In this document: positions 10,574 through 59,980 of the stretch, piece by piece
Position numbering within the stretch: position 1 is the stretch's first letter
Layout: each line of letters starts with the position of its first letter
DNA from: Pseudooceanicola nanhaiensis
GTDB taxonomy: Bacteria > Pseudomonadota > Alphaproteobacteria > Rhodobacterales > Rhodobacteraceae
DNA: 64,000 nt
Reading direction: 5' to 3'
Assembly: GCF_020171315.1 (NCBI RefSeq)
Contig: NZ_JAIUZP010000004.1
Location: forward strand, 62,001-126,000
Made by a program: the position numbers and the translations under genes
Notes under the pieces: model-generated
Told to the model about the DNA's origin: nothing
Databases searched by the model: none
What the model saw: the letters and a program-made list of their open reading frames with translations, nothing else

Positions 10574-12262
10574 ATGAGCGAGACTTGGGCGGTTGCTTCC
10601 GGTCATCCCCGCGCCACACAGGCAGCGGAGCGAATCCTCAAGGCAGGCGGCAACGCGGTGGACGCGGGCGTCGCCGCCGGGCTGACGCTGGGGGTGGTGC
10701 AGCCCGATCTGGTATCGGTCGCGGGCGTGGCGCCCATCGTGATGTACCTCGCCGGTGAAGACCGGGTGACCAGCTATGACGGCGTGGGGCACTGGCCCGC
10801 CGCGGCGGATGTGGAGGTGATGCACGCCGCCCATGGCGATCACGTCCCCGAGGGCCTGCTGCGCACCGTGATCCCCGCCGCCCCGGCAAGCTGGATCAAG
10901 GCGCTGCGCAGCCACGGCACCCGCAGCTTCGCCGAGATCGCACAGGACGCGCTGGAGGCCGCCCGCGACGGGTTCGAGGTCTATCCGCTCTTTGCCGATT
11001 TCGTCGCCACGCGGGTCGAGAAATACCGCCGCTTCCCCTCCACCGCCGCGATCTTCCTGCCCGATGGCCAGCCGCCCAAGGTGGGTGAGATCTTCGTTCA
11101 GGCCGACCTCGGGCGCACGCTGCAATGCATGATCGACGCCGAGGCCGCGGCACTGGCCGCGGGCGGCGACCGCCTCGCCGGGCTCGATGCCGCGCGTGCC
11201 GCCTTCTACGAGGGCCCGATCGCCGAGAAGATCGTGGCCTTCCACGCCGGAAACGGCGGGCTGATGACGGCGCAGGACCTCGCCACCTACGAGGTCCGCG
11301 AGGAGCCGACCCACAAGGTCGCCTTCCGCGGGGCCGAGGTGCATTGCTGCGGCGCGTGGTGTCAGGGCATCTCCATGGCCGAGACGCTTTCGATGATCGA
11401 GGCGGCGGGGCCGGAGGCCACCGTGAAGGACGGCGCGCCGGACCTGCATTTCCTGCTGGAGGTGCTGAAACGGGTCTTCGCCGACCGCGAGGCCTATGTC
11501 ACCGATCCGCGCTTCATGAAAGTGGAGGAGAGCGCCCTGCTCGCCCCCGACTTCCTGCGCGACCGCCTCGCGACGATCACCGGCACCTCCGATCCCCTGC
11601 CCGCACCCGGTGACGCTGTGGCCCCTGCCCCCGTCACCGACAGTGGCGAGACGCCGGTCTTCCGCGCGGGCTGTGCCGACACCTCCCATGTCAGCGTGAT
11701 CGACGCGGCGGGCAACATCTTCTCCGCCACGCCCTCCGATCCCAGCTATGACACCGTGGTGATCCCCGGCACCGGGCTCTCTGTCTCCTCCCGCGGGTCG
11801 CAGAGCCGCGCGATCCCCGGCCACCTGAACGCGCTCGCCCCCGGCAAGCGGCCCCGGCTGACGCCGAACCCGATCCTCGCCCTGAAGGACGGCCAGCCCT
11901 GGATGGCCATGGGCACGCCCGGCGGCGACGTGCAGGTGCAGGCGATGACGCAGGTGCTGGTGCAGATGCTCGACCTCGGCCTGCCGCTGGAAGACGCGAT
12001 CCGCGCACCCCGCGTGGCGACCTATGCCTACCCCGGCAGCTTCGCGCCCCATGACGTGCACCCCAACAAGGTGCTCTACGAGGCCGACCTGCCCGAAGGC
12101 CAACTGGCCGACCTTGCCGCCCGGGGCCACGACCTCGAGGCATGGCCCGCACTGACGTGGAAGGCCGGTGGTCTTTGCGTCGCGCTGCGCGAGGCCGGCA
12201 GCACCATCGCCATCGCCGATCCCCGCCGCGCGGGTACGGCCGCCACAGGAGAGACCGCATGA
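10574..12262 (+). CDS. Gamma-glutamyltransferase-family Ntn hydrolase
   Basis: A 562-residue proenzyme of the gamma-glutamyltransferase family, normally cut autocatalytically so that a Thr becomes the N-terminal nucleophile. The processing site is visible as ADTSHVSVID with candidate catalytic Thr370, followed by PSDPSYDTVVIPGTG and the MGTPGGDVQVQA loop. The N-terminal ASGHPRATQAAERILKAGGNAVDA is the classic family start. No signal peptide is seen, so it should be cytoplasmic, as in oxamate-amidohydrolase (HpxW-like) and acylase members, and unlike periplasmic glutathione-degrading enzymes. It is divergent from gntR-tct and its stop overlaps the next gene (ATGA), suggesting it processes the acid imported by TctABC. 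Exact substrate unknown. Confidence 0.86.
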   Translation: MSETWAVASGHPRATQAAERILKAGGNAVDAGVAAGLTLGVVQPDLVSVAGVAPIVMYLAGEDRVTSYDGVGHWPAAADVEVMHAAHGDHVPEGLLRTVIPAAPASWIKALRSHGTRSFAEIAQDALEAARDGFEVYPLFADFVATRVEKYRRFPSTAAIFLPDGQPPKVGEIFVQADLGRTLQCMIDAEAAALAAGGDRLAGLDAARAAFYEGPIAEKIVAFHAGNGGLMTAQDLATYEVREEPTHKVAFRGAEVHCCGAWCQGISMAETLSMIEAAGPEATVKDGAPDLHFLLEVLKRVFADREAYVTDPRFMKVEESALLAPDFLRDRLATITGTSDPLPAPGDAVAPAPVTDSGETPVFRAGCADTSHVSVIDAAGNIFSATPSDPSYDTVVIPGTGLSVSSRGSQSRAIPGHLNALAPGKRPRLTPNPILALKDGQPWMAMGTPGGDVQVQAMTQVLVQMLDLGLPLEDAIRAPRVATYAYPGSFAPHDVHPNKVLYEADLPEGQLADLAARGHDLEAWPALTWKAGGLCVALREAGSTIAIADPRRAGTAATGETA

Positions 12263-48026: not shown

Positions 48027-49265
48027 TCAGGCTCTCCGGATCAGCGGGGACTGCAGCGTCGCCAGCAGCACGGGCAGCGCACTTGCGGCCTGTGTGACGA
48101 CGGCGACGGCGAGGTAGCCCCAGGCGAGCGCGGTCAACCCGTGCGGCGCCATGAGGACGGTGTTGGCGATCAGCGCGGCGGTCATCGCCAGCGTGACGGT
48201 GAATTCGCGCTGCGGGCGGCCCTCGGCGCGCAGGTATTGCGCCACGGCGGACCAGATCACGCCCGGGATCGCCGCAAGGCAGAGAATCGAGACGACCTTG
48301 GCCAGCCCGGCCCATTGCGCCCCGAAGAGCACCGGCACGTAGAGCGGCGCGGCGAAGGCCTGCAGCACGACCACCGGGGCGATGATCCCGACCGAGAGCA
48401 TCAGGGCGCGGCGCAGCTCCAGCCCGCGGTCTTCCGCGGCGCAGAGCGACGGGAAAAGCGCGACGGAGAGCGCCTGCGAGAAGGAATTGGCAAGGCCGAG
48501 CCCCGCGTTGAAGGCCATGAAGTAGAGCCCCAGCATCTCGGGCCCCAGCAGAAGGCCGACGACCAGCTTGTCCGCCTGCAGCCGCAGCGCCTTGACCAGT
48601 TCGACCCCCAGCACGGCCCAGCCGTAGCGGGCGAAGGGCGCGAGCGGCGCGGGAGAAACGGTCCGGTCCGGGCGCCAGGGGTGCAGGCGGCGCATGGCGA
48701 TCAGCCAGATCGGCGCGGCCAGCAGGCGCGGCAGCACCAGCGCCAGCGGCCCGGGCAGCACCAGCACCAGCACGGCAGTGGCGATATTCGCCCCCACCAC
48801 CTGACCGGCGGCAATCGCGGCGGTCTGGCGCATCTTGCCCGCCCGCATGGCAAGGGCGCATTGCACCAGCCCGCGCGGCATGAAGAGGTATTCCCCCGCG
48901 AGGATCGCGATCAGGGCAAAGAGCAGCGCCTCGCCCCCGGCCAGCCAGAGCGCGGCGCCGAGGATCATCTGAAGCCCGAAGAGCCCGAGGCACCAGCCGT
49001 CGAAGATCCGCTGCGCGGTGCGGCAGGTGGCCTCCAGCTCTCCCTGCGGGGCGGCGATGATACGCTGGTTCACCCCGGTCTCGGTCAGGGCCTTGAGGAT
49101 ATCGGCGGCGGCCATGGCGGCGGCGGCGATCCCGATGGCGCCGGCGTCCAGCGTTCGGGCGACTGCCACGACCACCAGCAGCCGCGACGCCTTGGCTGCC
49201 ACTTCGGACAGGCAGTAGGCGAGAAGGTGACGGGCGAAATGTCCCGTGCGGCTCTCTGTGGTCAT
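48027..49265 (-). CDS. Polysaccharide flippase (Wzx-type, oligosaccharide export)
   Basis: A 412-residue membrane protein with about twelve hydrophobic segments and the MOP-superfamily pattern (LLAYCLSEVAAKASRLLVVVAVARTLDAGAIGIAAAAMAAADI; ALRLQADKLVVGLLLGPEMLGLYFMAFNAGLGLANSFSQALSVALFPSL). It should flip the undecaprenyl-linked repeat unit to the periplasm. The start at 49265 is chosen for AAAGGAGCTGACTGCC upstream; a frame to 49292 adds a leader without a signal. First gene of the minus-strand transferase operon, divergent from the wza-type gene; the palindrome at 49394-49411 lies in the shared promoter region. Confidence 0.87.
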   Translation of the reverse strand: MTTESRTGHFARHLLAYCLSEVAAKASRLLVVVAVARTLDAGAIGIAAAAMAAADILKALTETGVNQRIIAAPQGELEATCRTAQRIFDGWCLGLFGLQMILGAALWLAGGEALLFALIAILAGEYLFMPRGLVQCALAMRAGKMRQTAAIAAGQVVGANIATAVLVLVLPGPLALVLPRLLAAPIWLIAMRRLHPWRPDRTVSPAPLAPFARYGWAVLGVELVKALRLQADKLVVGLLLGPEMLGLYFMAFNAGLGLANSFSQALSVALFPSLCAAEDRGLELRRALMLSVGIIAPVVVLQAFAAPLYVPVLFGAQWAGLAKVVSILCLAAIPGVIWSAVAQYLRAEGRPQREFTVTLAMTAALIANTVLMAPHGLTALAWGYLAVAVVTQAASALPVLLATLQSPLIRRA

Positions 49266-49393
49266 GGCAGTCAGCTCCTTTGCGGCGCCCACCGTGTGGG
49301 GGTTGGGGAATGGGCGCTGAGACAGGTCTAGCAGCGCGGCCGCCGTGCCGCCTCCGCGCGGGCGGCGAGGTGAGGCGCCCCAAAGGTCAGCGC

Positions 49394-49411
49394 CCTATCC
49401 CCTTGGATAGG
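49394..49411. promoter_or_regulatory. CTATCC-N4-GGATAG palindrome, site 1
   Basis: Perfect inverted repeat CCTATCC-CCTT-GGATAGG in the wzx/wza divergent promoter, ending 88 bp before the wza start. A half-site CTATCC recurs at 49456-49461. Same motif as 55557-55570 and 58310-58325; candidate site for the LuxR-type regulator at 57441-58052. Confidence 0.65.
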
Positions 49412-49499
49412 CCCGGCAATCCCCCCGCGCGTTGGACCTGTGGAGGTGCGGCGCGCTATCCCTGAGGTCAGGAATTCACACCCATCAGAGGAGGCAGCC

Positions 49500-50735
49500 A
49501 TGCCCCGCAAGACCATCGGAAAGGCCCCCGCAAAGGGTCTCGCCCTGATCGCGCTCGGCGCCCTGGCCGCCTGCGCCGCACCACCCCAGGCGCGCAACAT
49601 CGAACCCGTCGCACAGGGCGACGGCTACCAGGCCCAGTACCGGGAGTTCGAGGTCAGCCGGAACGCCATGAGCTTCCTGCGCGCGCCAGACATGAACGCC
49701 GCCAAGTGCCGCCCGCCCATCGGCGGGGCCGACTACACCGGCGGCGGCAAGCTGGACGGCGACGCCTATGCGCTGCGCGGCGAGCTGCTCTCGCGCGGGG
49801 ATCTCGTCGACTTCCGCCTGCCGCAGGACGAGACCTTCTCGGGCGATTACGTCGTCTCGCGCGATGGCACGCTGAAGCTGCCGTTCCTGCCCCCCATCGC
49901 CGCCGCCGGCCGCCGCCCCGAGGCGGTCGCCAGCGACATCCGCCGCGCCCTCGTCGCGGGCGGCCATTACGGGGCGGAGCCTGTGACCTCGCTCCTGATC
50001 CTCGACTTTGCGCCCGCCCGCGTCGCGGTCTCGGGCGCGGTGTTCGAGCCCCATCCGATCGACATCGGCGGCGTCTCGGGCGATCAGGTGGACAGCCGTC
50101 GGCAGGCCGCTTTCGGGGCCTCGACGGAACAGCGCAACCTCTCGGTCGCGCTGCGCAACGCGGGTGGCATCCGGCCCGATGCGGATCTCTCGGCGGTGAA
50201 GCTGAGCCGCGCGGGGCGGAACTACACGCTCGACCTGCGCGGCGCGATCCGGGGCGAGATGTTCGAGGACATCATGCTGATCACCGGGGACGAGATCCAC
50301 GTCCCCTCCCGCGGCTGCTTCCAGGATGACCTCGTGGTGCCAGGCCCGATCAGCCCGCCGGGCGTCTCGCTCTTCCTGTCGAACCTGACCCAGCCCGCCA
50401 CCGGCAACGCGATCTCTGCCATCGGCCAGACCGTGCGCGAGGTGCCCTACGGCACGCGCTACATGCAGGCGGTGGTGGATGCGAACTGCGTCGGCGGGGC
50501 GCGGGTTTCCAGTGCCGCCCGCTCCGCCGCGCTCTTCTCGCGCAACCCGGTGACGGATGTCTCGGTGGTGATCGAACGGCCCATCGAGCAGATGCGCGCC
50601 CGCGCCGACCGGGACGACTACGACCCCTACCTGCTGCCGGGCGACAGCATCGCCTGCTACGACAGCGGCATCACCAACGTGACCGAGATCGGCCGCGTGC
50701 TGGGGGTGATCGGTGCCGTGGCAATGCTGCCCTGA
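49500..50735 (+). CDS. Polysaccharide export lipoprotein (Wza-type)
   Basis: A 411-residue outer-membrane exporter. The signal peptide ends in the lipobox LGALAACAA (lipid-modified Cys near residue 25). The polysaccharide export domain follows (YALRGELLSRGDLVDFRLPQDETFSGDYVVSRDGTLKLPFLPPIAAAGRRPEAVASDIRRAL, residues about 90-155) and then SLBB-like repeats. CAGAGGAGGCAGCC precedes the ATG at 49500. It stands alone on the plus strand and ends in a strong terminator. It would form the secretion pore for the polysaccharide made by this locus. Confidence 0.88.
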   Translation: MPRKTIGKAPAKGLALIALGALAACAAPPQARNIEPVAQGDGYQAQYREFEVSRNAMSFLRAPDMNAAKCRPPIGGADYTGGGKLDGDAYALRGELLSRGDLVDFRLPQDETFSGDYVVSRDGTLKLPFLPPIAAAGRRPEAVASDIRRALVAGGHYGAEPVTSLLILDFAPARVAVSGAVFEPHPIDIGGVSGDQVDSRRQAAFGASTEQRNLSVALRNAGGIRPDADLSAVKLSRAGRNYTLDLRGAIRGEMFEDIMLITGDEIHVPSRGCFQDDLVVPGPISPPGVSLFLSNLTQPATGNAISAIGQTVREVPYGTRYMQAVVDANCVGGARVSSAARSAALFSRNPVTDVSVVIERPIEQMRARADRDDYDPYLLPGDSIACYDSGITNVTEIGRVLGVIGAVAMLP

Positions 50736-50764
50736 GCGGAAGAGAAAACAGAGGCGAGCAGAGG

Positions 50765-50798
50765 CTGGCGGCGGGTTTCCCGTCGCCAGTTTCGTTTT
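50765..50798 (+). terminator. Terminator of the wza-type gene
   Basis: CTGGCGGCGGG (50765-50775) pairs with CCCGTCGCCAG (50779-50789) around a TTT loop, with one G-U pair, followed by TTTCGTTTT. Confidence 0.85.
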
Positions 50799-50986
50799 GC
50801 GTCAGGGGGATACGGCATCAGCCGCTTCGGAAGCGGGCCTCGGGACGGGCGCGTTCAGGACGGGCGCCCTATGGCTGGCCGTATCGGAACGGGCCACACA
50901 GGACCGAGCTGCTCGGGGCAGTCTATTCCGTTGGAGGCCGCCCTATCGGACGCGCCATGACCGCCATGGGCGGCTCCCCCCGCCCC

Positions 50987-52222
50987 TCAGCCCCGCCCGA
51001 CCGCGAGGGCCAGACCGTCCACGACCGCCGTGAAGGCCTCGGCGCTGCGCACCTCGGCCCCCGGCATCAGGGCGCGGGCCTCGCGCGCAACGAAGCCCAT
51101 GAGGCTGGAGCCGCCGACGAGGATGATGTCCTGCACCTCCTCCGCCGCCACGCCCGCCCGGGCCAGTGTCTCGACCATCGCCTCGCTCAGGGCGGCGCCA
51201 TGGGGCGCCATGGCCGCGTCGAGCCCCGCCACCGTCACCGGCGCGGCAAGGCCCTTCTCGATCTCGCCCATGCGGATCTCGCCCGTGCCCCCGGGCCCGT
51301 TGGCCGCGATCTTGCCCTTCTCCACCGCGAAGGCGAGGCCGTGGCCCAGTTCCTCCTCCACCACGTCGCGGAAGCGTTCGATCTTCTCGGGTTCTACCGC
51401 GAGGCGCAGCATGTCCTTGGCCAGACGCCGGGTCTCGGGCGTGTAGACGAAGGGGATCTTGGCCCATGTGGCAAGGTCGACATAGGGCGCACGGGGCACC
51501 GGCAGCAGCCCGCTGCCCATCTCGCGCCGCAGCTCCGAGCCGAGGCCGAGCAGCGGCATGGCATGAGCGAGCGAGACCGACTGGTCGAAATCCGTGCCGC
51601 CGAGGCGGATACCGTGGCTGGCGATGATCTCGGGCTGGTCGGCGGAGGTGCGGAAGAAGGTGAAGTCCGAGGTCCCGCCGCCGATGTCGACGATCAGGCC
51701 GAGGCGCGCACCGCCCGCGAGGCCGTGGCTGGCCAGCACGGCAGCCTCGGGCTCGGGCAGGAAATCGACCTCCTCGAACCCGGCGGCGAGGTAGCAGGCC
51801 CTCAGGTCGGCCTCTGCCTGCGCGTCCTTCTGGGGATCGTTGGAGTGGAAATGCACCGGACGGCCGGAAAGCGCGCGGCGGAAGGTCAGCCCCGTGGCCG
51901 CCTCGGACCGGGTGCGCAGTTCGGCGAGGAAGGCGGTGATCACCTCGGCCAGCGTGCGGCGCTGCCCGCCGATCAGGCGCTTTTCATGCAAGAGCGGCAG
52001 GCCGAGCACGCTTTTCAGCGCGCGCATGTAGCGCCCCTCCTCGCCCGCGATCAGCGCCTCCGCGGCGGCGGTGCCGATGCGCATCCCGCCGCTTGCGGGG
52101 AAGAAGACGGCGGTGGGCAGCGTGTCGCCACCACGCTCGATCGGGATGCGGTAGATGCCGCCGTCATAGGGTAGCGCCACGGCCGAGTTGGAGGTGCCAA
52201 AATCGATTGCCAGACGGTCCAT
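50987..52222 (-). CDS. Hsp70 family protein (YegD-like)
   Basis: A 411-residue DnaK-fold ATPase without the substrate-binding lid, like E. coli YegD. The N-terminal phosphate loop LAIDFGTSNSAVALP, the middle GLIVDIGGGTSDFTFF and the LVGGSSLMGFVAREA adenosine motif are intact. The ATG at 52222 follows AAAAGGGGGCGCAGC; a frame to 52279 is not preferred. It lies inside the exopolysaccharide locus between wza and the hybrid kinase, convergent with wza. The client is unknown and the location may be incidental. Confidence 0.9.
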   Translation of the reverse strand: MDRLAIDFGTSNSAVALPYDGGIYRIPIERGGDTLPTAVFFPASGGMRIGTAAAEALIAGEEGRYMRALKSVLGLPLLHEKRLIGGQRRTLAEVITAFLAELRTRSEAATGLTFRRALSGRPVHFHSNDPQKDAQAEADLRACYLAAGFEEVDFLPEPEAAVLASHGLAGGARLGLIVDIGGGTSDFTFFRTSADQPEIIASHGIRLGGTDFDQSVSLAHAMPLLGLGSELRREMGSGLLPVPRAPYVDLATWAKIPFVYTPETRRLAKDMLRLAVEPEKIERFRDVVEEELGHGLAFAVEKGKIAANGPGGTGEIRMGEIEKGLAAPVTVAGLDAAMAPHGAALSEAMVETLARAGVAAEEVQDIILVGGSSLMGFVAREARALMPGAEVRSAEAFTAVVDGLALAVGRG

Positions 52223-52356
52223 GCTGCGCCCCCTTTTGTGGAAAGGTCCGGGCTTACGGGGAAGCCGCGCAAGGTGCAAGCGGGAAGCGGCGGAGGCCCG
52301 CGATCCGGGCGCGGACGGCGTGGCTCTGGGCGGGCCCTATGCGCATGACCGGGCCC

Positions 52357-54939
52357 TCAGGCGGCGGCGCGCCAATGCTCCAGCTCGGCGCGGGTGTCCG
52401 CCCAGAGGGGGCCAAGCGCCTTCAGCGCTTCCACCTGCACCGGCTGGCCCTGCTTGGCCCGGCTTTCGATCGCGGCGAGCGCGACACGCAGCGCGCCAAG
52501 CCCGAAGGCCGCGCAGTTGCCCGCGCATTGGTGCACCGTGGCGGCCAGTGCCGGATCGTCGGGCGCCGTGACGACGAGGGCGTCGATGGTCGCGTCAATC
52601 TCGGCCACCACGCGGGCCAGCATCTCGTCGCGCCGCGCCTCGGGCAGCCCCTGCCAGAGCGTGTCGATCTGCGCCCGGTCCAGAAGCGCCCGCACCCGCG
52701 GCACCCCGTCCTGCGCCGCGACCTGCCCCTTGTCCGCGTTCACCGCCGCCGCAAGCGTCCGAAACAGCTCGGTCCGGTCGATGGGCTTGGCGATGCAATG
52801 GTCGATGCCCGCCGCCCGGAAGGAGGCGATCTCCTCCGACAGCGCATGGGCCGTCACCGCGATGATCGGCCGACCGGCCGAGGCCCCGCCCCCGGCACGG
52901 ATGCGCCGTGCGGCCTCGGGCCCGTCCATCACCGGCATGGAAATATCCATGAGGATCGCGTCGAAGGCCCGGCTGTCGGCCCATTCGACGCCCGCGCGCC
53001 CGTTTACCGCCTCGGTCACCGCGTGCCCCTCGGCCTCCAGCATCTGGCGTGCGACGAAGCGGTTGATCTCGTTGTCTTCCACCAGCAGCAGGTCCAGCGG
53101 GCGCAGCGCGGGTGCCGCGGCCCGGGGCGCTTCCGCCTCCGGCAGGGCCGCCTCTGCCCCCACGGGAATGCGCAGCCAGAAGAGCGAGCCTTCACCCGGT
53201 TCGCTTTCCACCCCGATCTCACCCCCCATGAGCTTGGCCAGCCGCCGCGCGATGCCAAGGCCGAGGCCCGTGCCCCCGGCCTGCCGCGCATAGGAGCTGT
53301 CCAGCGTCTCGAAGTCGTGGAAGATGCGTTCGATGTTCTCGGGTGCGATGCCGATGCCGCTGTCGATGACGCGGAATTCCAGCAGCGTGCCGCCCTTCAG
53401 CGCCTCGACCTCCACATCGACAGAGCCCGCCCGGGTGAATTTCACCGCGTTGCCCACGAGGTTCAGGAGCACCTGCCGCAGCCGCCGGGCATCGCCCGTG
53501 GCCACCGCGCGGGCGGGCCCCGCCCAGGACCATGCAAGGCTGTTGCCCGCGGCAGAGGCCAGCGGGGCCGCCGTCTCGATCACCCCGTCGAGCAGCCGGG
53601 CCACGTCGAAGGGCTTGCGCTCGGCGGTCATCTTGCCGGCCTCGAACTTCGAAAGCTCCAGCACGTCGTTCACCAGCCCCAGCAGCAGGTGGCCGGAGCT
53701 GTCCATCCGGTCGAGCAGATCGATCTGCCGTTCGTCCAGGCTGTGATCGCGCAGCAGCTGCATCGTGCCCAGCATCCCGTTGAGCGGCGTGCGCATCTCG
53801 TGGCTCATCACGGCGAGGAATTCCGCCTTGGCGCGTTCCCCCGCAAGGGCGCGGTCGCGGGCATCGGTCAGCCCCTCCTCCGCCTGTTTCCGGCGCGAGA
53901 TGTCGCGGACGTAGATGATGTAGAGCGGCCCGGCCTCGGCCCGCGCGATGGAGAGCTCCGCCGTGAACTGGCGGCCCGCCGCGTCGGTGGCGGTCGCCTC
54001 GAAGTCTCTGGCCGCCTCGCCGGGCACACCGCCGGTTTCGAGGAAGGCCAGCAGCCCGGTGCGCAGGCGCGCGGCCTCCTCGCCGGGGAAAATCAGGTTG
54101 ATCGCGTTGCGGTGCCGGGCCTCGGCCCGGGAATAGCCGAACATCGCCTGCGCGCGCGGGTTGAACTCGCGGATATTGCCCGCAACATCACTCACCACGA
54201 TGGCCTCGGGCGAGGTTTCGACGATGGTGCGGGTGCGTTCGCCCGCACGGCTCACCTCCAGTGCACGGTACTCGGCAATCCGGGACAGGCGCCAGAGCAC
54301 CCATGCGATCAGCACGAGGCCCGCGAAGAGACAGCCCAGCACGGCCGCGAGGGCGACCAGCGTGCGCATGACCCCTTCGCGGCGCATATCCGACAGCTCT
54401 GCAAAGGCCGCGAGCCCCGCCAGCGACAGGGCGCGCACCTCGCCGGCGAGCGCCGTGGTGCGTTCCGCAAGCGCAGGCAAAGCCTCCCGCAGCGCGGCGT
54501 CGGGCCCGTCGATCAGCGGCACGGTGTCCTGGAGGAAGGTCGCGATCTGCTGCCGGGGCGAGACATAGGCCGGGTCCGCGCGCAGGGTGCGGTAGACATC
54601 GCCCTGCTCCAGCGAGGCGACGCGGCTGTAGAAGATATCGAAGCTGCGGCGGACCCGGTCCAGCGCCGTGGGGTCCATCTGGGCATGTTCCACCGCGATG
54701 TTGAAGCGCAGGAATTCCACGTCGGTCTGGGACAGGCTCCATTGGAGGTTGTCGGAATTGGCCCGGCTGAAGGCCTCGACCTCGCGCAGGACGAAGAGCG
54801 CCATCCCCATGACGAGCGCCACGCAGATCACCAGAGCGCCCACGGCCAGCCCGGCGCGCGCCCGCGACCGGCGGCGGCGGGCGGCAAGGCTGTCCCGGGG
54901 CGTGGGCTGGGACGTGGACTGGTCTTCGGGCGCGGTCAT
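52357..54939 (-). CDS. Hybrid sensor histidine kinase with PAS, REC and Hpt domains
   Basis: An 860-residue membrane sensor: TM1 at 30-51, periplasmic helical sensor domain 52-193, TM2 194-215, PAS domain about 236-345, dimerisation domain with phospho-acceptor His380 (MSHEMRTPLNG), HATPase with N-box near Asn497 and G-boxes (DSGIGI; GGTGLGLGI), receiver domain with Asp665 (ILMDISMPVMDG), and a C-terminal Hpt domain with His803 (TVHQCAGNCAAFG). HK, REC and Hpt in one chain form three of the four steps of a phosphorelay; the LuxR-type regulator at 57441 is the natural last step. The SUOX-fold protein gene 7 bp upstream probably supplies its sensory input. Confidence 0.92.
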   Translation of the reverse strand: MTAPEDQSTSQPTPRDSLAARRRRSRARAGLAVGALVICVALVMGMALFVLREVEAFSRANSDNLQWSLSQTDVEFLRFNIAVEHAQMDPTALDRVRRSFDIFYSRVASLEQGDVYRTLRADPAYVSPRQQIATFLQDTVPLIDGPDAALREALPALAERTTALAGEVRALSLAGLAAFAELSDMRREGVMRTLVALAAVLGCLFAGLVLIAWVLWRLSRIAEYRALEVSRAGERTRTIVETSPEAIVVSDVAGNIREFNPRAQAMFGYSRAEARHRNAINLIFPGEEAARLRTGLLAFLETGGVPGEAARDFEATATDAAGRQFTAELSIARAEAGPLYIIYVRDISRRKQAEEGLTDARDRALAGERAKAEFLAVMSHEMRTPLNGMLGTMQLLRDHSLDERQIDLLDRMDSSGHLLLGLVNDVLELSKFEAGKMTAERKPFDVARLLDGVIETAAPLASAAGNSLAWSWAGPARAVATGDARRLRQVLLNLVGNAVKFTRAGSVDVEVEALKGGTLLEFRVIDSGIGIAPENIERIFHDFETLDSSYARQAGGTGLGLGIARRLAKLMGGEIGVESEPGEGSLFWLRIPVGAEAALPEAEAPRAAAPALRPLDLLLVEDNEINRFVARQMLEAEGHAVTEAVNGRAGVEWADSRAFDAILMDISMPVMDGPEAARRIRAGGGASAGRPIIAVTAHALSEEIASFRAAGIDHCIAKPIDRTELFRTLAAAVNADKGQVAAQDGVPRVRALLDRAQIDTLWQGLPEARRDEMLARVVAEIDATIDALVVTAPDDPALAATVHQCAGNCAAFGLGALRVALAAIESRAKQGQPVQVEALKALGPLWADTRAELEHWRAAA

Positions 54940-54946
54940 GCTGGGA

Positions 54947-55459
54947 TCAGTCCGCGACCTCGATCCGGTCCAGTTGCCAGATGGCGCGGGAATAGGTCAC
55001 TTCGTTCTGGTACTTGGCGTTGTCGTCGAAGGGATAGACGACCCAGAGCGGCCCCTTCTCGCGCAGCGACATGGACGCGCCGTTCTGCAGGAAGGCCACG
55101 ATCGGCCCCCCGTCGACCCAGTCGCTGTCGGGGATTTTCACCGCGTAGTCATTGACTGCCGTGGCCGAGAGGCTTGCGGCCTCTGCCCCCACGGTCTCCA
55201 TCAGGGTCTTGAGGGAGACGCCGGTAAATTCCTGCGGCCCCTCGGTCCAGATGGTGGTGGTGGTGAAGGTGACCGGGTCCAGCGCTTCCAGCATGGCGCG
55301 GTCGAAAAGGGTGGCATCCCCATCGTTGGTGTTCGTGATCGACCCGCTGACCGTCAGCAGAACCTCTCCTGTCGGGGTCGGCAGGGGGTCCGCCGCGAGG
55401 CCCTGCGGCAGGGCAAGGAAAGCCAGCGTGGCCATGCGCGTGAAGGTCTGGGCGATCAT
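54947..55459 (-). CDS. Periplasmic SUOX-fold (molybdopterin-binding-like) protein, PruR-like
   Basis: A 170-residue exported protein with signal peptide (residues 1-23, MIAQTFTRMATLAFLALPQ then GLAADP). The rest resembles the oxidoreductase molybdopterin-binding (SUOX-like) domain: LLTVSGSITNTND, FTGVSLKTLMETVGA, NDYAVKIP, SLREKGPLWVVYPFDD. It lacks the cysteine ligand of true sulfite oxidases. Small proteins of this kind encoded next to membrane sensors include PruR of Agrobacterium tumefaciens, a pterin-binding periplasmic regulator of biofilm formation. It lies 7 bp upstream of the hybrid kinase gene, so it is probably its binding partner. Identity as a pterin sensor is inference. Confidence 0.78.
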   Translation of the reverse strand: MIAQTFTRMATLAFLALPQGLAADPLPTPTGEVLLTVSGSITNTNDGDATLFDRAMLEALDPVTFTTTTIWTEGPQEFTGVSLKTLMETVGAEAASLSATAVNDYAVKIPDSDWVDGGPIVAFLQNGASMSLREKGPLWVVYPFDDNAKYQNEVTYSRAIWQLDRIEVAD

Positions 55460-55556
55460 CGTCTGTCCTCCGTGGGGATGCCGTGAGTGGTGGTCTTGTG
55501 AAACTCTTATCCCATCCCGCGGGCCGCGCGTCTCGGGAGCATCCGTGCAGTGGGTA

Positions 55557-55570
55557 TATCCGAACGGATA
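55557..55570. promoter_or_regulatory. TATCC-N4-GGATA palindrome, site 2
   Basis: Perfect inverted repeat TATCC-GAAC-GGATA centred about 104 bp upstream of the start of the minus-strand PruR-like/hybrid-kinase operon. A GGGATAAG -10-like box on the minus strand lies about 55 bp from its centre. Confidence 0.65.
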
Positions 55571-55615
55571 GGCGGGATGGGATCAAGGGGGTATGGCAGG
55601 TGTCGGGATCCTGTC

Positions 55616-55646
55616 GGCGCGCCGTCGCTGGGGACGACGGCGCGCC
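55616..55646 (-). terminator. Hairpin terminator of the GT26-sugar transferase gene
   Basis: Perfect 12-bp stem GGCGCGCCGTCG (55616-55627) and complement (55635-55646) with a 7-nt loop, 14 bp past the stop at 55661. No T-run follows on the minus strand. Confidence 0.6.
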
Positions 55647-55660
55647 ACGGGGCCGCGGCC

Positions 55661-57067
55661 TCAATAGGCCCCCCGGCCCCCGAGGATCGCCCGGAAGGTC
55701 ATCGCGATCAGGATCAGGTCCAGCAGCAGCCCGCGCGACCGGACATAGGCCAGGTCCATGTCGATCATCTTGTCAAAGCCGATCTCGGCCCGGCCCGACA
55801 CCTGCCAGACCCCGGTCAGCCCCGGCTTCGCCGCCAGCCGCCCAAGCGCCCGCGCCGGATAGGCCGCCACCTCGGAGGGCAGCGCGGGGCGCGGGCCGAC
55901 CACCGACATCTCGCCGCGCAGGACGTTGAGGATCTGGGGCATCTCGTCGATCGAGAACCGGCGCAGCAGGCGGCCGACCCGCGTCACCCGGGGATCGTTG
56001 CGGGACTTGAAGCAGATGCCGTCCCGGTCCGACTGCGCCAGAAGCGCCGCGCGGCGGGCCTCGGCGTCGATATGCATGGAGCGGAACTTGAACATGGTGA
56101 AGGTCCGCCCGTCCCGGCCCACGCGGGTCTGGCGGAAGAAGACCGGCCCGCGGCTTTCGGCCCGGATCGCGGCGGCCACCATCAGCCCTGCAGGCGCCAG
56201 CAGCAGCAGCGCGCCCCCCGCCAGCGTCACGTCCAGCGCCCGGGTCGCCACGGCGCGGGGCGAGACCTGCCGCAGGGCCTGAGCCGCGGCACGCGCCAGG
56301 AAGGTCGCATTGCCGACGAGGTAGCGCCCGGCCATGCGGCGCGGCTCCATCGCCAGCCGCCAGGCCCATTCCATCCGCGCCCGGCGCACCGGGGCCGGCG
56401 CCCGCTGCACCCGCCCGGCCAGGAAGTCGAAGAGCGCCCCGACCCCCAGCGTCAGCCGGGGCTCCAGCCGGGCGGCCATGCGGGCCAGCCACTGGTCCTG
56501 CAGCGGCACACCGGCGGCCACCAGAAGGATATCGGGCCGCGCCGCGTTGATCGCGGCCACGGTGGCGGCCTCGTCCGCCATGCCGTCATAGCCGTCGCGC
56601 ACCCCCACCACCCGCAGCCCGGGAATGGCCAGGCAGAGCCGGTCGGCGGCAGCCTGCGCCACGCCCGGACGCGCGCCCAGCAGGTAGACGCTCAGCCCCC
56701 GGGCGGCGGCGGCCTTCAGCAGCGCGGGCGTGAAATCGGTGCCGTTCAGGTTCTCGGCGATTGTCTGGCCGGTCATCCGCGCCGCCAGCTCCACCCCGAT
56801 GCCATCCGGCAGGATCATATCCGCGCCCGCCATCGCATCGGCATAGGCCGCATCCCGCGACAGGATATTGACGCAATGGGCATTCAGGAAGGCGACCCGG
56901 CTGCGCCGCCCCGGGGCCATCAGGTGGTCAATCACCGCCTCGGTCGTGGCGGACACCACGTCGAGCCCGAAGAGGCGGACACGGTCGAGCCCGGCTGCGG
57001 GGGCCGCGGGCACATTGGCCGGACGGGCGGCGTGGAAATCGGCGGGGCGGTGTGCGGCGTAGGTCAT
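55661..57067 (-). CDS. Fusion: WecG/TagA (GT26) glycosyltransferase + bacterial sugar-phosphate transferase
   Basis: A 468-residue fusion. Residues about 30-245 are a WecG/TagA/CpsF (GT26) domain (FLNAHCVNILSRD; ILPDGIGVELAARM with Asp88; LLVAAGVPLQDQWLA). Residues about 275-468 are a bacterial sugar transferase (WcaJ/PssY-like) with one hydrophobic stretch (281-301), FRQTRVGRDGRTFTMFKFRSMH and the catalytic DE of FSIDEMPQILNVLRGEMSVVGPRP (D374, E375). The second domain loads the first sugar phosphate on undecaprenyl phosphate and the first probably adds the second sugar. Start at 57067 follows CGGAGACCGCC. It is the initiating enzyme of the locus. Confidence 0.92.
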   Translation of the reverse strand: MTYAAHRPADFHAARPANVPAAPAAGLDRVRLFGLDVVSATTEAVIDHLMAPGRRSRVAFLNAHCVNILSRDAAYADAMAGADMILPDGIGVELAARMTGQTIAENLNGTDFTPALLKAAAARGLSVYLLGARPGVAQAAADRLCLAIPGLRVVGVRDGYDGMADEAATVAAINAARPDILLVAAGVPLQDQWLARMAARLEPRLTLGVGALFDFLAGRVQRAPAPVRRARMEWAWRLAMEPRRMAGRYLVGNATFLARAAAQALRQVSPRAVATRALDVTLAGGALLLLAPAGLMVAAAIRAESRGPVFFRQTRVGRDGRTFTMFKFRSMHIDAEARRAALLAQSDRDGICFKSRNDPRVTRVGRLLRRFSIDEMPQILNVLRGEMSVVGPRPALPSEVAAYPARALGRLAAKPGLTGVWQVSGRAEIGFDKMIDMDLAYVRSRGLLLDLILIAMTFRAILGGRGAY

Positions 57068-57440
57068 GGCGGTCTCCGGGATGTGACGGTGGCGTTTGCC
57101 TCTGCCCCGACCGTGCCCGCCGCCCTGCCCGCCGCTCAACATCCCCGGCGGCGAGGTCCCGTGCCCCCTCGGATCGGCCCCCCGCCCTGTGGCGTCCCGC
57201 CGTCGCCCAGCGCATCGCGGCGCGGATCATCGGGGCGTGCCCCCTATCCGAAGGTGTATACAGCCTCCCCGTCCTCGCCCTTTTTCTGACACCTTAATGG
57301 TGTCTTAATGGGCCTGTTTGAGCCCCGCCTGCGGTGCGCCGCCAAGGAGGAAAAAGATGACTTTTCAAAATCGAGCAATGATAGGAACCTCCCGTGAAGC
57401 GGAGGCGGGACAGACCCTGCGGCCCGCAAGAGGAGACGAG
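57068..57440. other. Divergent promoter region between the fusion transferase and luxR-type gene
   Basis: About 370 bp. A half TATCC motif (57245-57249) is followed by GTGTATAC. An inverted repeat GACACC-TTAAT-GGTGTC lies at 57288-57304, and the 8-mer CTTAATGG occurs twice with 11-bp spacing at 57293 and 57304. An alternative start of the luxR-type gene lies at 57357. The rest is GC-rich without a gene. Confidence 0.55.
57288..57311. promoter_or_regulatory. Overlapping inverted and direct repeats upstream of the luxR-type gene
   Basis: GACACC-TTAAT-GGTGTC (57288-57304) overlaps two copies of CTTAATGG (57293-57300, 57304-57311) that are one helical turn (11 bp) apart, in an AT-rich pocket with a TTTTT run just before. 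It may be a binding site or, read leftward, a weak terminator. Confidence 0.45.
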
Positions 57441-58052
57441 ATGCGCATTCTGATCGCCGACGACCACGACCTGCTGCGCGATACGCTGGTGCTCTACGTC
57501 GGCAACGAGGCAGGGCTCGACGCCGCCACCGCCGCCGACCTCGCCGGGGCCGAGGCGCTGCTGGCCGCCGAGGCCTTTGATCTGGTGCTACTCGATTTCA
57601 CCATGCCCGGGATGAATGGCCTCGACGGTCTCAAGCGCGTCATGGCGCTGCCGGGGGAGCACCGCGTGGCGATCATCTCCGGCACCGCCAGCCGCGAGGT
57701 CGCCGAACAGGCGCTCGCCGCGGGCGCGGCCGGGTTCCTGCCCAAGACGCTTTCGGCCAAGTCGCTGGTCAACGCGATCCGCTTCATGGCCATGGGCGAG
57801 CAATACGCCCCCCTCGAATTCATGCGCGCGGCGGAGGAGGCCGAGAGCCATCCGCTTGCCGAGATGCTCTCGCACCGCGAGATGCAGGTGCTGGAGGGGC
57901 TGACGCAGGGCAAGTCCAACAAGGAGATCGCCCGCGACCTCGATATCCGCGAGCCGACGGTCAAGCTTCACATGAAGACGCTCTACCGCAAGATCGGCGC
58001 CGCGAACCGGACCCAGGCCGCGCTGATCGCGAAGGAACAGGGCCTGTTCTGA
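57441..58052 (+). CDS. LuxR/NarL-type response regulator
   Basis: A 203-residue two-domain regulator: receiver domain with Asp7-Asp8, phospho-acceptor Asp52 (LVLLDFTMPGMNG) and Lys102 (FLPKT), then a LuxR helix-turn-helix (LSHREMQVLEGLTQGKSNKEIARDLDIREPTVKLHMKTLYRKIG, residues about 140-183). AGAGGAGACGAG precedes the ATG at 57441; an in-frame ATG at 57357 with an equally good AAGGAGGAAAAAG would add 28 residues. It lies in the middle of the exopolysaccharide locus between two biosynthesis genes and is the likely output of the hybrid kinase, acting at the TATCC-N4-GGATA sites. Confidence 0.92.
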   Translation: MRILIADDHDLLRDTLVLYVGNEAGLDAATAADLAGAEALLAAEAFDLVLLDFTMPGMNGLDGLKRVMALPGEHRVAIISGTASREVAEQALAAGAAGFLPKTLSAKSLVNAIRFMAMGEQYAPLEFMRAAEEAESHPLAEMLSHREMQVLEGLTQGKSNKEIARDLDIREPTVKLHMKTLYRKIGAANRTQAALIAKEQGLF

Positions 58053-58055
58053 GCC

Positions 58056-58070
58056 CGCCCCGGTGGGGCG
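58056..58070 (+). terminator. Short hairpin after the luxR-type gene
   Basis: CGCCCC-GGT-GGGGCG directly after the stop. Weak terminator candidate without T-tract. Confidence 0.3.
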
Positions 58071-58133
58071 CAGACGCGCCGCACCGATGCCCCGGCGGAC
58101 AGGGGCTGTGCCCAGCGCGCCCGGCGGGAGGGC

Positions 58134-58251
58134 CTTCCCGCTTCCCGCTTCCCGCTTCCCGCTTCCCGCTTCCCGCTTCCCGCTTCCCGCTTCCCGCTTC
58201 CCGCTTCCCGCTTCCCGCTTCCCGCTTCCCGCTTCCCGCTTCCCGCTTCCC
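58134..58251. repeat. 7-bp tandem repeat array (CTTCCCG x 16.9)
   Basis: Sixteen perfect head-to-tail copies of CTTCCCG (58134-58245) plus six bases of a seventeenth, with no sequence variation. It lies 81 bp past the luxR-type stop and 58 bp before the palindrome at 58310, in the 365-bp gap ahead of the wzz-type gene. A perfect array of this kind is prone to slippage and should differ in copy number between strains. Confidence 0.97.
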
Positions 58252-58309
58252 TAAGAAGGGTCCGCGCCGCGCGGCCGGGTGCAACGGGTTTCCCCCGCCA
58301 CGGAAGCGC

Positions 58310-58325
58310 CTATCCCGACGGATAG
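58310..58325. promoter_or_regulatory. CTATCC-N4-GGATAG palindrome, site 3
   Basis: Perfect inverted repeat CTATCC-CGAC-GGATAG ending 92 bp before the wzz-type start, comparable to 88 bp at wza. Downstream, GCGCTATGGCTGAGGTC (58387-58403) resembles GCGCTATCCCTGAGGTC (49453-49469) before wza and could be a shared promoter element. Confidence 0.65.
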
Positions 58326-58417
58326 CCAGCCTCTCCCCCCGCTCCATTTTCCCATCCTCCGGCGACACCCGGCGCAGGCGCGGTTTGCGCTATGGCTGAG
58401 GTCCAAGGAGACCTCCC

Positions 58418-59980
58418 ATGCCCCGCCTGTTGATCCGACTGTTGACCCGCTGGCTCAGCCTGTTCGTCCGCGTCCTGCGCGGGGCGCTGCGGCGCTTCCT
58501 GCGTCTGCCGCTGCCGGTGCTGTTCCGCAGCCCTTTGCGCTCCATCACCTTTGCCCGGCTGCTGCGCGGCGGGCGTCCGGCCGACGCGGGGCGGTTGCCG
58601 CGCTATCTCGGGCTCTTCGCCGTGGGGGTGGTCTGCATCTGGACGCCGATCTCCACCTATCTCTCCACGGCGCCGCTGCGCTACACCTCGGGGCTGTCGC
58701 TGATCCTGCCGGGCTCCGGGGCCTCGGCCTCGGTGAACCTCGACCGGATCGGACAGGCGTCGTCCTTCGCCTCCTCGCCCTATGCGCATTCCTCCGTCAG
58801 CCCGACCGAGACCTACAAGCGTCTGCTGGCCGCCGAGCGGATCGTCAGCGCTGCCGCCCGTGCGCTGGAGATGGAGCCGCGCGACTTCGGCAGCCCCCGG
58901 ATCGAACTGGTGGACCAGACCGGGCTGATCCATGTCTCGATCACCGGCAATTCCCCCGAGGATGCCAAGATCCGTGGCGAGGCCCTGCTGGCCGCCTTCT
59001 TCCACGAGATCGAGGCCCTGCGCACCGATGAGCTGCAAATGCGCGAGGTCGGCGCGGGCGAGGCGATCGACGATTATCGCCGCTCCGTCCTCGCCACGCG
59101 CGACGAGATCTCGCGGCTCCAACGGGAGACAGGTCTGATCTCGGCCACCCAGTTCGAGGCGCTAGTGGCCGAGACCGACGAACTGGCGCGACGGGCGGGC
59201 GACATGGCCACCACGCTGGCCGACAAGAGCGAAGCCGTCACCGCACTGCGGCAGGCGCTCGACACGACGCCCCGGCTGGCGGCGGCGGCGCTGAAGCTGC
59301 ACGCAGATACGGCCTATGGCGCGCTGGCCCGCGAGATGTCGGACCAGGCGGCGCTGCTTTCGCGCAAGCGGGCGGCCTTCGGCGCCAATCACCCCGAGGT
59401 GCAGGCCGCAAGGGCCGCCCATGCCGGGGCCGAGGCCGATGCGCTGGCCCGGGCCGAGGCGATCACCGGCCTGCCCCGGGCGGCGCTTGCGCGGCTCGAC
59501 ATGTCCCACGTGGGCAACCGGGCGCCACTGTTGAGCGATCTTGTCACGCTGGAGGCCGAACGCGCTGGGCTGGAGGCGGAACTGGCCAAGACCACGGCCC
59601 GGCTGGACCGGGCCCGGGCGCGCCAGATGGCGCTGATCGACCCGGCCGCGCGGCTCGAAGACCTGCAACGGGACTTTGCCGTGGCCGAGGCGGTCTTTGC
59701 CTCTGCCATCGCCCGGACCCAGACCAACAAGGCCGATCTCTTTGCCTCCTACCCGCTGGTGCAGGTGCTGGAGAACCCCTCGCTGCCGACGGACCCCAGC
59801 AGCCCCCGGCGCAAGCTGGCGCTGGCCGCAGGGATCGCCGCGACCTTCTTCATGTTCCTCGGCTTCTTCCTCGGCTGGATGCGCCGCCCGCTGATCGACA
59901 AGCTGCTGACGCCCCGCGACGGGGACGGCAAGCGCAGACCCTCGGAGGAGCACGGGCCGGCCGGGGTCCCTGCGGAATGA
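58418..59980 (+). CDS. Polysaccharide chain-length/co-polymerase protein (Wzz/GumC-like)
   Basis: A 520-residue inner-membrane protein: a basic N-terminal stretch (residues 1-55), TM1 at about 63-82, a long periplasmic helical region with predicted coiled coil (about 200-425), and TM2 at about 467-488 with a short cytoplasmic tail. The order fits Wzz/PCP proteins. There is no C-terminal tyrosine kinase domain, so it is a PCP without an attached kinase, and no separate kinase gene is seen. CCAAGGAGACCTCCC precedes the ATG at 58418. It controls length and export of the polymer together with Wza and the polymerase. Confidence 0.85.
   Translation: MPRLLIRLLTRWLSLFVRVLRGALRRFLRLPLPVLFRSPLRSITFARLLRGGRPADAGRLPRYLGLFAVGVVCIWTPISTYLSTAPLRYTSGLSLILPGSGASASVNLDRIGQASSFASSPYAHSSVSPTETYKRLLAAERIVSAAARALEMEPRDFGSPRIELVDQTGLIHVSITGNSPEDAKIRGEALLAAFFHEIEALRTDELQMREVGAGEAIDDYRRSVLATRDEISRLQRETGLISATQFEALVAETDELARRAGDMATTLADKSEAVTALRQALDTTPRLAAAALKLHADTAYGALAREMSDQAALLSRKRAAFGANHPEVQAARAAHAGAEADALARAEAITGLPRAALARLDMSHVGNRAPLLSDLVTLEAERAGLEAELAKTTARLDRARARQMALIDPAARLEDLQRDFAVAEAVFASAIARTQTNKADLFASYPLVQVLENPSLPTDPSSPRRKLALAAGIAATFFMFLGFFLGWMRRPLIDKLLTPRDGDGKRRPSEEHGPAGVPAE

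Follow-up and report, generated by a model that had tools for sequence, protein, structure and literature searches.

What controls the exopolysaccharide genes in a 64,000-nucleotide stretch of the Pseudooceanicola nanhaiensis genome (positions 62,001 to 126,000 of contig NZ_JAIUZP010000004.1; the window, whose own numbering is used here) is a question raised by a short palindrome, TATCC-N4-GGATA, that recurs ahead of genes of one locus. An earlier note on this DNA proposed it as the operator of the LuxR-type regulator encoded there, with the operon for the regulator's own sensor among the targets, and the comparison now made with related loci and genomes supports this through shared promoters, co-occurrence of motif and regulator, and stand-alone modules that have kept the site. 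Judged from sequence comparison, TATCC-N4-GGATA is very probably the binding site of this nearby two-component regulator, which would switch the polysaccharide genes on. The regulator gene (57441..58052, forward strand) specifies a NarL/FixJ (LuxR-type) response regulator with matches to PF00072 (E 1.7e-22) and PF00196 (E 1.3e-20), a receiver aspartate at D52 and the recognition helix EPTVKLHMKTLYRK. An autoinducer-binding domain is absent from its Pfam matches, and its N-terminal domain is a receiver.

The three perfect copies that had been claimed are present, at 49396-49409, 55557-55570 and 58311-58324, and the distances given for them of 88, 97 and 92 bp are correct, the start codons being at 49500, at 55459 on the minus strand and at 58418. 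The spans assigned to them were right in position, but the first extends beyond the core by two paired bases on each side and the third by one. The first putative operator, A (CCTATCCCCTTGGATAGG, 49394..49411), lies between the divergent wzx and wza genes and, being so placed, may serve both; operator B (TATCCGAACGGATA, 55557..55570) is upstream of the pruR-kinase operon; and operator D (CCTATCCCGACGGATAGC, 58309..58326) is upstream of wzz. The degenerate copy reported at 57245 exists, has two mismatches, and corresponds to a fourth site, C (57245..57258), that stands between the glycosyltransferase and regulator genes in syntenic loci. Allowing one mismatch at most, the window has four occurrences, where 100 shuffled versions averaged 0.30 and never had more than 3, and the genome-wide scan that had been suggested as a check gave six perfect copies in 4.8 Mb and none of a reversed control pattern. 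Three of the six are the window sites and three are elsewhere in the genome.

The palindrome is strongly over-represented where the regulator has relatives. The best 80 of at least 555 confirmed relatives were taken with up to 10 kb on each side (1.50 Mb in total); the nearest among them, from Maritimibacter alkaliphilus, is 94% identical, and the remainder reach 65-79% identity in their best segment. Perfect TATCC-N4-GGATA occurs 106 times in these loci against 0.65 expected from the frequencies of its half-sites in the same DNA, and is found in 59 of the 80, with related genomes counted as separate and both the window and its near-copy, L037, counted. All 106 have a spacer of four nucleotides, and each of the other twelve spacers in the range 0-12 has between 0 and 3 sites. 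Among all 5-mer half-sites with these spacers, TATCC with spacer 4 ranks top by count, and it is also top by z-score among the 1036 half-site and spacer families that have at least eight copies, followed by overlapping frames of the same motif (CTATC-6, CCTAT-8 and ACCTA-10); when ranked by ratio, ACCTA-10 and CTATC-6 come above TATCC-4. The information profile gives (A)CCTATCC-N4-GGATAGG(T) as the full motif, i.e. ACCTATCC-N4-GGATAGGT, and the spacer favours G at its edge and A or T in its interior.

A comparison of orthologous promoters, also suggested as a check, has the site recurring at the same promoters in diverged relatives. The best site was scored in each orthologous intergenic region, the window being included in classes A to D and gene starts in relatives being extrapolated from tblastn. 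In class A, between wzx and wza, 25 of 37 regions have a perfect site and 10 have one with a single mismatch; upstream of the sensor operon (class B) the counts are 29 and 8 of 39, between the glycosyltransferase and regulator genes (class C) 10 and 15 of 43, and between regulator and wzz (class D) 17 and 13 of 35. Class E consists of stand-alone modules, in which the sensor operon faces the regulator gene with no glycosyltransferase gene between them, and here 18 of 27 are perfect and five have one mismatch; the palindrome is thus retained before the pruR operon in loci that lack exopolysaccharide genes next to it. When each region was mononucleotide-shuffled twenty times, the 3620 shuffled sequences yielded one perfect and 18 one-mismatch sites.

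Ten additional sites in or near stand-alone loci were inspected, and their positions vary. Those of L079, L086 and L106 are 170-250 bp before genes that by eye are family-2 glycosyltransferase-like, that of L114 is 110 bp before a galU-like gene, and that of L096 is 177 bp before an ortholog of the fused glycosyltransferase gene. The sites of L050, L061 and L070 are within predicted frames, a predicted frame also overlies that of L053, which has a glycosyltransferase gene 1.1 kb off, and that of L097 is downstream of the regulator gene. Near operator A, a stretch at approximately 49350-49385, 11-46 bp from the operator in the direction of wzx, is unusually conserved, with several columns above 85%; it is perhaps the -35 region of wzx or a second binding site.

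The sensor operon begins with a gene (54947..55459, minus strand) whose 170-residue product has just a weak, below cut-off Pfam match (PF00174, E 6e-4), and which by sequence and predicted fold encodes a PruR-type pterin-binding protein. With sequence alone, phmmer gives E 1.2e-37 to Klebsiella PruR with neopterin (7rkb). An AlphaFold2 (AF2) model built from a 36-ortholog alignment has a mean predicted local distance difference test score (pLDDT) of 91.4, and its best Foldseek match is Agrobacterium PruR (7kos; E 5.4e-19, 46% identity, TMt 0.94), with 7rkb also recovered. PruR proteins are told from sulfite oxidases by having no cysteine able to ligate molybdenum, and none of the 36 aligned members has a cysteine beyond residue 25. 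Its N-terminus resembles a signal peptide by eye, and so the protein is presumably periplasmic. The second gene (52357..54939, minus strand) specifies a hybrid histidine kinase with PAS, HisKA (H380), HATPase and REC domains, a weak C-terminal Hpt (H803) and two hydrophobic segments, 25-57 and 188-222. Its best NCBIfam match, below cut-off, is TorS, and neither GGDEF nor EAL is among its Pfam matches. pruR adjoins the kinase gene in 64 of the 80 loci.

What we consider highly likely is that these proteins form a PruR-linked phosphorelay in which a dimer of the regulator, positioned on TATCC-N4-GGATA, activates both the exopolysaccharide genes and the operon of its own sensor. A signal in the periplasm, plausibly a pterin that PruR binds if the homology is a guide, would alter the kinase, and phosphate would pass from the kinase receiver by way of Hpt to the regulator in a His-Asp-Hpt relay. 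The regulator dimer would bind the palindrome as its operator and aid RNA polymerase at the divergent wza and wzx promoters and at those of wzz and the sensor operon, and the region between the glycosyltransferase and regulator genes would be activated as well in relatives with a good site C. Exopolysaccharide production would then be switched on as one unit, and the sensor would be under positive feedback. The DNA part of the mechanism is well supported by the sequence comparisons; we infer activation, as the direction of control, from promoter geometry, and a pterin as the signal from homology.

For the geometry, offset sets aligned on the palindrome were drawn up by hand. They comprise 35 of the 37 class A regions (without L042 and L083), all 35 of class D, and 61 of the 66 in classes B and E combined (without L077, L064, L069, L090 and L111); site C entered as a column-conservation profile of 27 of 43 regions. 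Words resembling -10 elements cluster at offsets 45-48 toward wza and toward the sensor operon; toward wzz and, more weakly, wzx they cluster at 64-68. That the sites are at similar distances from start codons, as the earlier note pointed out, is true but conceals these two promoter registers some 20 bp apart. Toward the sensor operon, 34 such words fall at offsets 45-47 in the 61 sequences, the mean for 3 bp being 3.2, and the highest peak on the side of these sites that faces away from the operon is 7 against a mean of 2.2. The counts are 17 in 35 sequences at offsets 65-67 toward wzz (mean 1.5 per 3 bp), nine in 35 at offsets 46-48 toward wza (mean 1.4 per 3 bp) and five in 35 toward wzx (mean 0.7).

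In the window itself, the inferred sensor operon promoter has the -10-like GATAAG, with TGG before it, at 55506..55511 on the minus strand (offset peak 45-47), and that of wzz has the -10-like TATGGC at 58391..58396 on the forward strand (offset peak 65-67). The candidate wza promoter, also on the forward strand, has a -35-like TTGGAC at 49432..49437, with TGGAC or TCGAC seen by eye near the same offset in many of the 35 sequences, and 19 bp after it TATCCC at 49457..49462. These last letters had been taken for a half-site of the palindrome, placed at 49456; they are present, but as relatives carry TATCA, TAATA or TATAT there, and not half-sites, they are probably the -10 element of wza. Transcription starts about 7 nt after a -10 element, which puts the centre of the palindrome at roughly -64 to -66 in one register and -84 to -85 in the other, a difference of about two helical turns. 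Class I activators of sigma-70 promoters bind at such upstream positions, and the offsets from palindrome to predicted promoter fit the geometry of an activator. It is here that another outcome of binding has to be weighed, namely that the regulator represses, or represses some of the promoters and activates others. Operators A and C do lie between divergent genes, where mixed regulatory effects are common, but at wza, wzx, pruR and wzz the centre of the palindrome is some 64-66 or 84-85 bp ahead of the putative transcription start, clear of the -10-like element, and repression appears unlikely.

That it is this regulator, activating in our preferred reading, and not another protein that recognizes the palindrome is indicated by their joint distribution. 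A strict motif, CTATCC-N4-GGATAG, was sought in 292 genomes of the order, and 138 sites were found against 13 of the reversed control. With the ten best candidates scored per genome for the regulator and the tables transcribed by hand, genomes in which it has a match at E<=1e-70 carry the strict motif in 50 of 59 cases, against 35 of the 233 others, and with the threshold at 1e-60 the proportions are 66 of 107 and 19 of 185. Within the genus, 12 of the 13 genomes encoding a regulator of at least 70% identity have the strict motif and none of the nine others does, and in nine of these 12 at least one strict copy is no more than 10 kb from that regulator gene.

The recognition helix points the same way. 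EPT.KLH.KTLYRK is common to the 80 orthologs at the 95% level; 20 loci of less similar regulators were also compared, and in 19 of these regulators EVT replaces EPT and S or C replaces Y, with L200 as the exception. A PruR-like stretch and a kinase gene are beside 16 of the 20, and no perfect site is present around the ten with 43-48% identity (6.6-6.7 kb each). P. nanhaiensis has three PruR-like matches. One is in the window, a second belongs to a paralogous module of PruR, hybrid kinase and LuxR-type regulator on C8 (G000:C8:172200-178800; L187) that is without a perfect motif in its 6.6 kb, and the third, on C10 (G000:C10:1538-1903; L230), is directly before the gene for a 470-residue histidine kinase. 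We lean toward a general reading of such arrangements, in which PruR/hybrid-kinase/LuxR-type modules of Rhodobacterales turn a periplasmic pterin signal into direct control of transcription and the branch with EPT...Y reads TATCC-N4-GGATA for exopolysaccharide. The genome would then have at least two complete modules, and a third PruR-like stretch before another kinase.

Outside the locus, two of the three remaining perfect copies in P. nanhaiensis fall within coding frames (L005 and L006), and the third is 137 bp upstream of a gene for an OmpR-type regulator that we take to be CtrA-like (L001, 575-1363; G000:C1:372434-373219) and that adjoins a uvrB-like gene, the names being assigned by eye. 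Two of the 17 orthologs of this CtrA-like gene in the genus, that of P. nanhaiensis (G000) and that of its close relative G005, have a perfect site, and six have a one-mismatch site, at 144-147 bp in G006 and G014 and at 223-242 bp in G016, G009, G021 and G017. A perfect site also precedes the gene for a VTT/DedA-family membrane protein in four of the 21 genus genomes with the gene (L207, L208, L209 and L211), and a one-mismatch site does so in a fifth; there is none at this gene in P. nanhaiensis, and the gene is possibly a lineage-specific addition to the regulon. In G016 and G009, a site is 88-98 bp upstream of a gene for a small protein whose match to DUF2946 is weak (E 0.009) and under the cut-off.

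Several observations weigh against assigning the palindrome to the local regulator within a phosphorelay of this kind. Perfect sites are missing from the fetched flanks of 21 of the 80 loci, site C is often degenerate, and some perfect palindromes are found at other places between genes, as in three relatives (L144-L146) where CTATCC-N4-GGATAG follows genes that by eye are glnA-like. The Hpt match of the kinase is weak (E 0.0016; 19.1 bits against a curated cut-off of 24.6), its HisKA and REC domains being clear. Just 16 of the 48 genomes with a regulator match between 1e-60 and 1e-70 carry the strict motif, and in G003, G009 and G010, three of the 12 genus genomes that have both the motif and a regulator of at least 70% identity, no strict copy is next to that regulator's gene. 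Others among these observations would suit ownership of the motif by a different transcription factor, such as a paralogous regulator, with the local one a mere neighbour: the motif in 19 genomes without a regulator match at E<=1e-60, the one-mismatch site of the CtrA-like gene in G006 and G014, which have no close copy of the regulator, the one-mismatch site 33 bp before the start of one of the ten 43-48% paralogs (L188, in G006), and the perfect sites near L198 and L204, which are two of the ten intermediate paralogs (52-65% identity), despite their other type of helix. Such an owner would have to follow the regulator through the genus as closely as the motif does, be compatible with the want of perfect sites at the ten paralog loci, and explain why stand-alone modules retain the site next to the regulator gene, and we regard it as improbable.

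The symmetry of the palindrome could alternatively serve RNA, as a hairpin or intrinsic terminator, since stems of seven pairs could form around a loop of four nucleotides, frequently GAAA or TTTC, and in many relatives site D starts a few nucleotides from the regulator stop codon. Yet TTTT follows within 14 nt on just three of 212 strand-sides, sites with two mismatches and CC..GG flanks are pair-compensated in one case out of ten, four segments of the window have folding z-scores between 0.07 and -1.93, and a terminator would be useless at sites A and C, which are between divergent starts, so that a role in RNA is very improbable. Chance, to which the shortness of the motif might appeal, is rejected by the conservation, the shuffles, the 106 copies against 0.65 expected and the reversed controls, and its likelihood is negligible.

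A two-component regulon is of a known kind, and the variant here would be one whose phosphorelay is linked to PruR and whose operator is defined. NarL/FixJ-family regulators bind their site, commonly an inverted repeat, when phosphorylated. The operators of NarL, VraR and FixJ offer the nearest parallel, with the same REC and GerE domains and a palindrome upstream of the core promoter, and VraR and NarL are the solved chains closest to the regulator. NarL sites have a 7-2-7 arrangement, unlike the half-site and 4-nt spacing here, and the targets here are exopolysaccharide genes. Agrobacterium PruR, 46% identical, likewise has a membrane sensor encoded alongside it and a connection to surface polysaccharide, and reportedly controls DcpA, its GGDEF-EAL operon partner, and cyclic-di-GMP; in the present case PruR is paired with a hybrid histidine kinase, and a DNA-binding response regulator would deliver the output in place of a cyclic-di-GMP enzyme. 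With RcsCDB and phosphorelays of the TorS/EvgS type there is in common a HisKA-REC-Hpt kinase beside a response regulator, the PruR partner and the operator being different here. CenKR of Rhodobacter sphaeroides (PMC9275681) has an OmpR-type regulator and the direct repeat TGA-N8-TGA, and shares with the system here that both are envelope-related two-component regulons in Rhodobacterales.

None of the literature matches listed, by title and start of abstract, is on the motif or the regulator, no search having been aimed at PruR. For many Rhodobacterales, the analysis names a specific operator, regulator and sensor through which exopolysaccharide would be controlled, and it connects the PruR family to a two-component phosphorelay whose DNA output can be read. 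The meaning of pterin signalling in marine bacteria becomes testable, and the paralogous modules lend themselves to study of how the specificity of a recognition helix changes.

Turning to the genes themselves, the wzx-type flippase is encoded at 48027..49265 on the minus strand (PF13440, E 2.6e-28) and the wza-type polysaccharide export protein at 49500..50735 on the forward strand (PF02563, E 1.1e-8). A WecG-type glycosyltransferase fused to a priming sugar transferase (PF03808 and PF02397) is encoded at 55661..57067 on the minus strand, and the wzz-type chain-length protein at 58418..59980 on the forward strand; the latter is without a Pfam match and has a TIGR03007 match (E 1.3e-13) below cut-off. 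An Hsp70-like gene at 50987-52222, between wza and the kinase gene, is present in the window and L037, with no tblastn match at E<=1e-5 in the other 79 loci.

Between the regulator stop codon and operator D is a 7-bp tandem repeat, (CTTCCCG)16.9, at 58134..58251. L037 has a CTTCCCG array in the same place (10800-10929) with 18.6 copies, and so the length of the array varies between these close relatives; it may tune or vary the expression of wzz. A record titled Nocardioides marinus (L093) carries a typical Rhodobacterales locus, which suggests that the assembly is mislabelled or contaminated.

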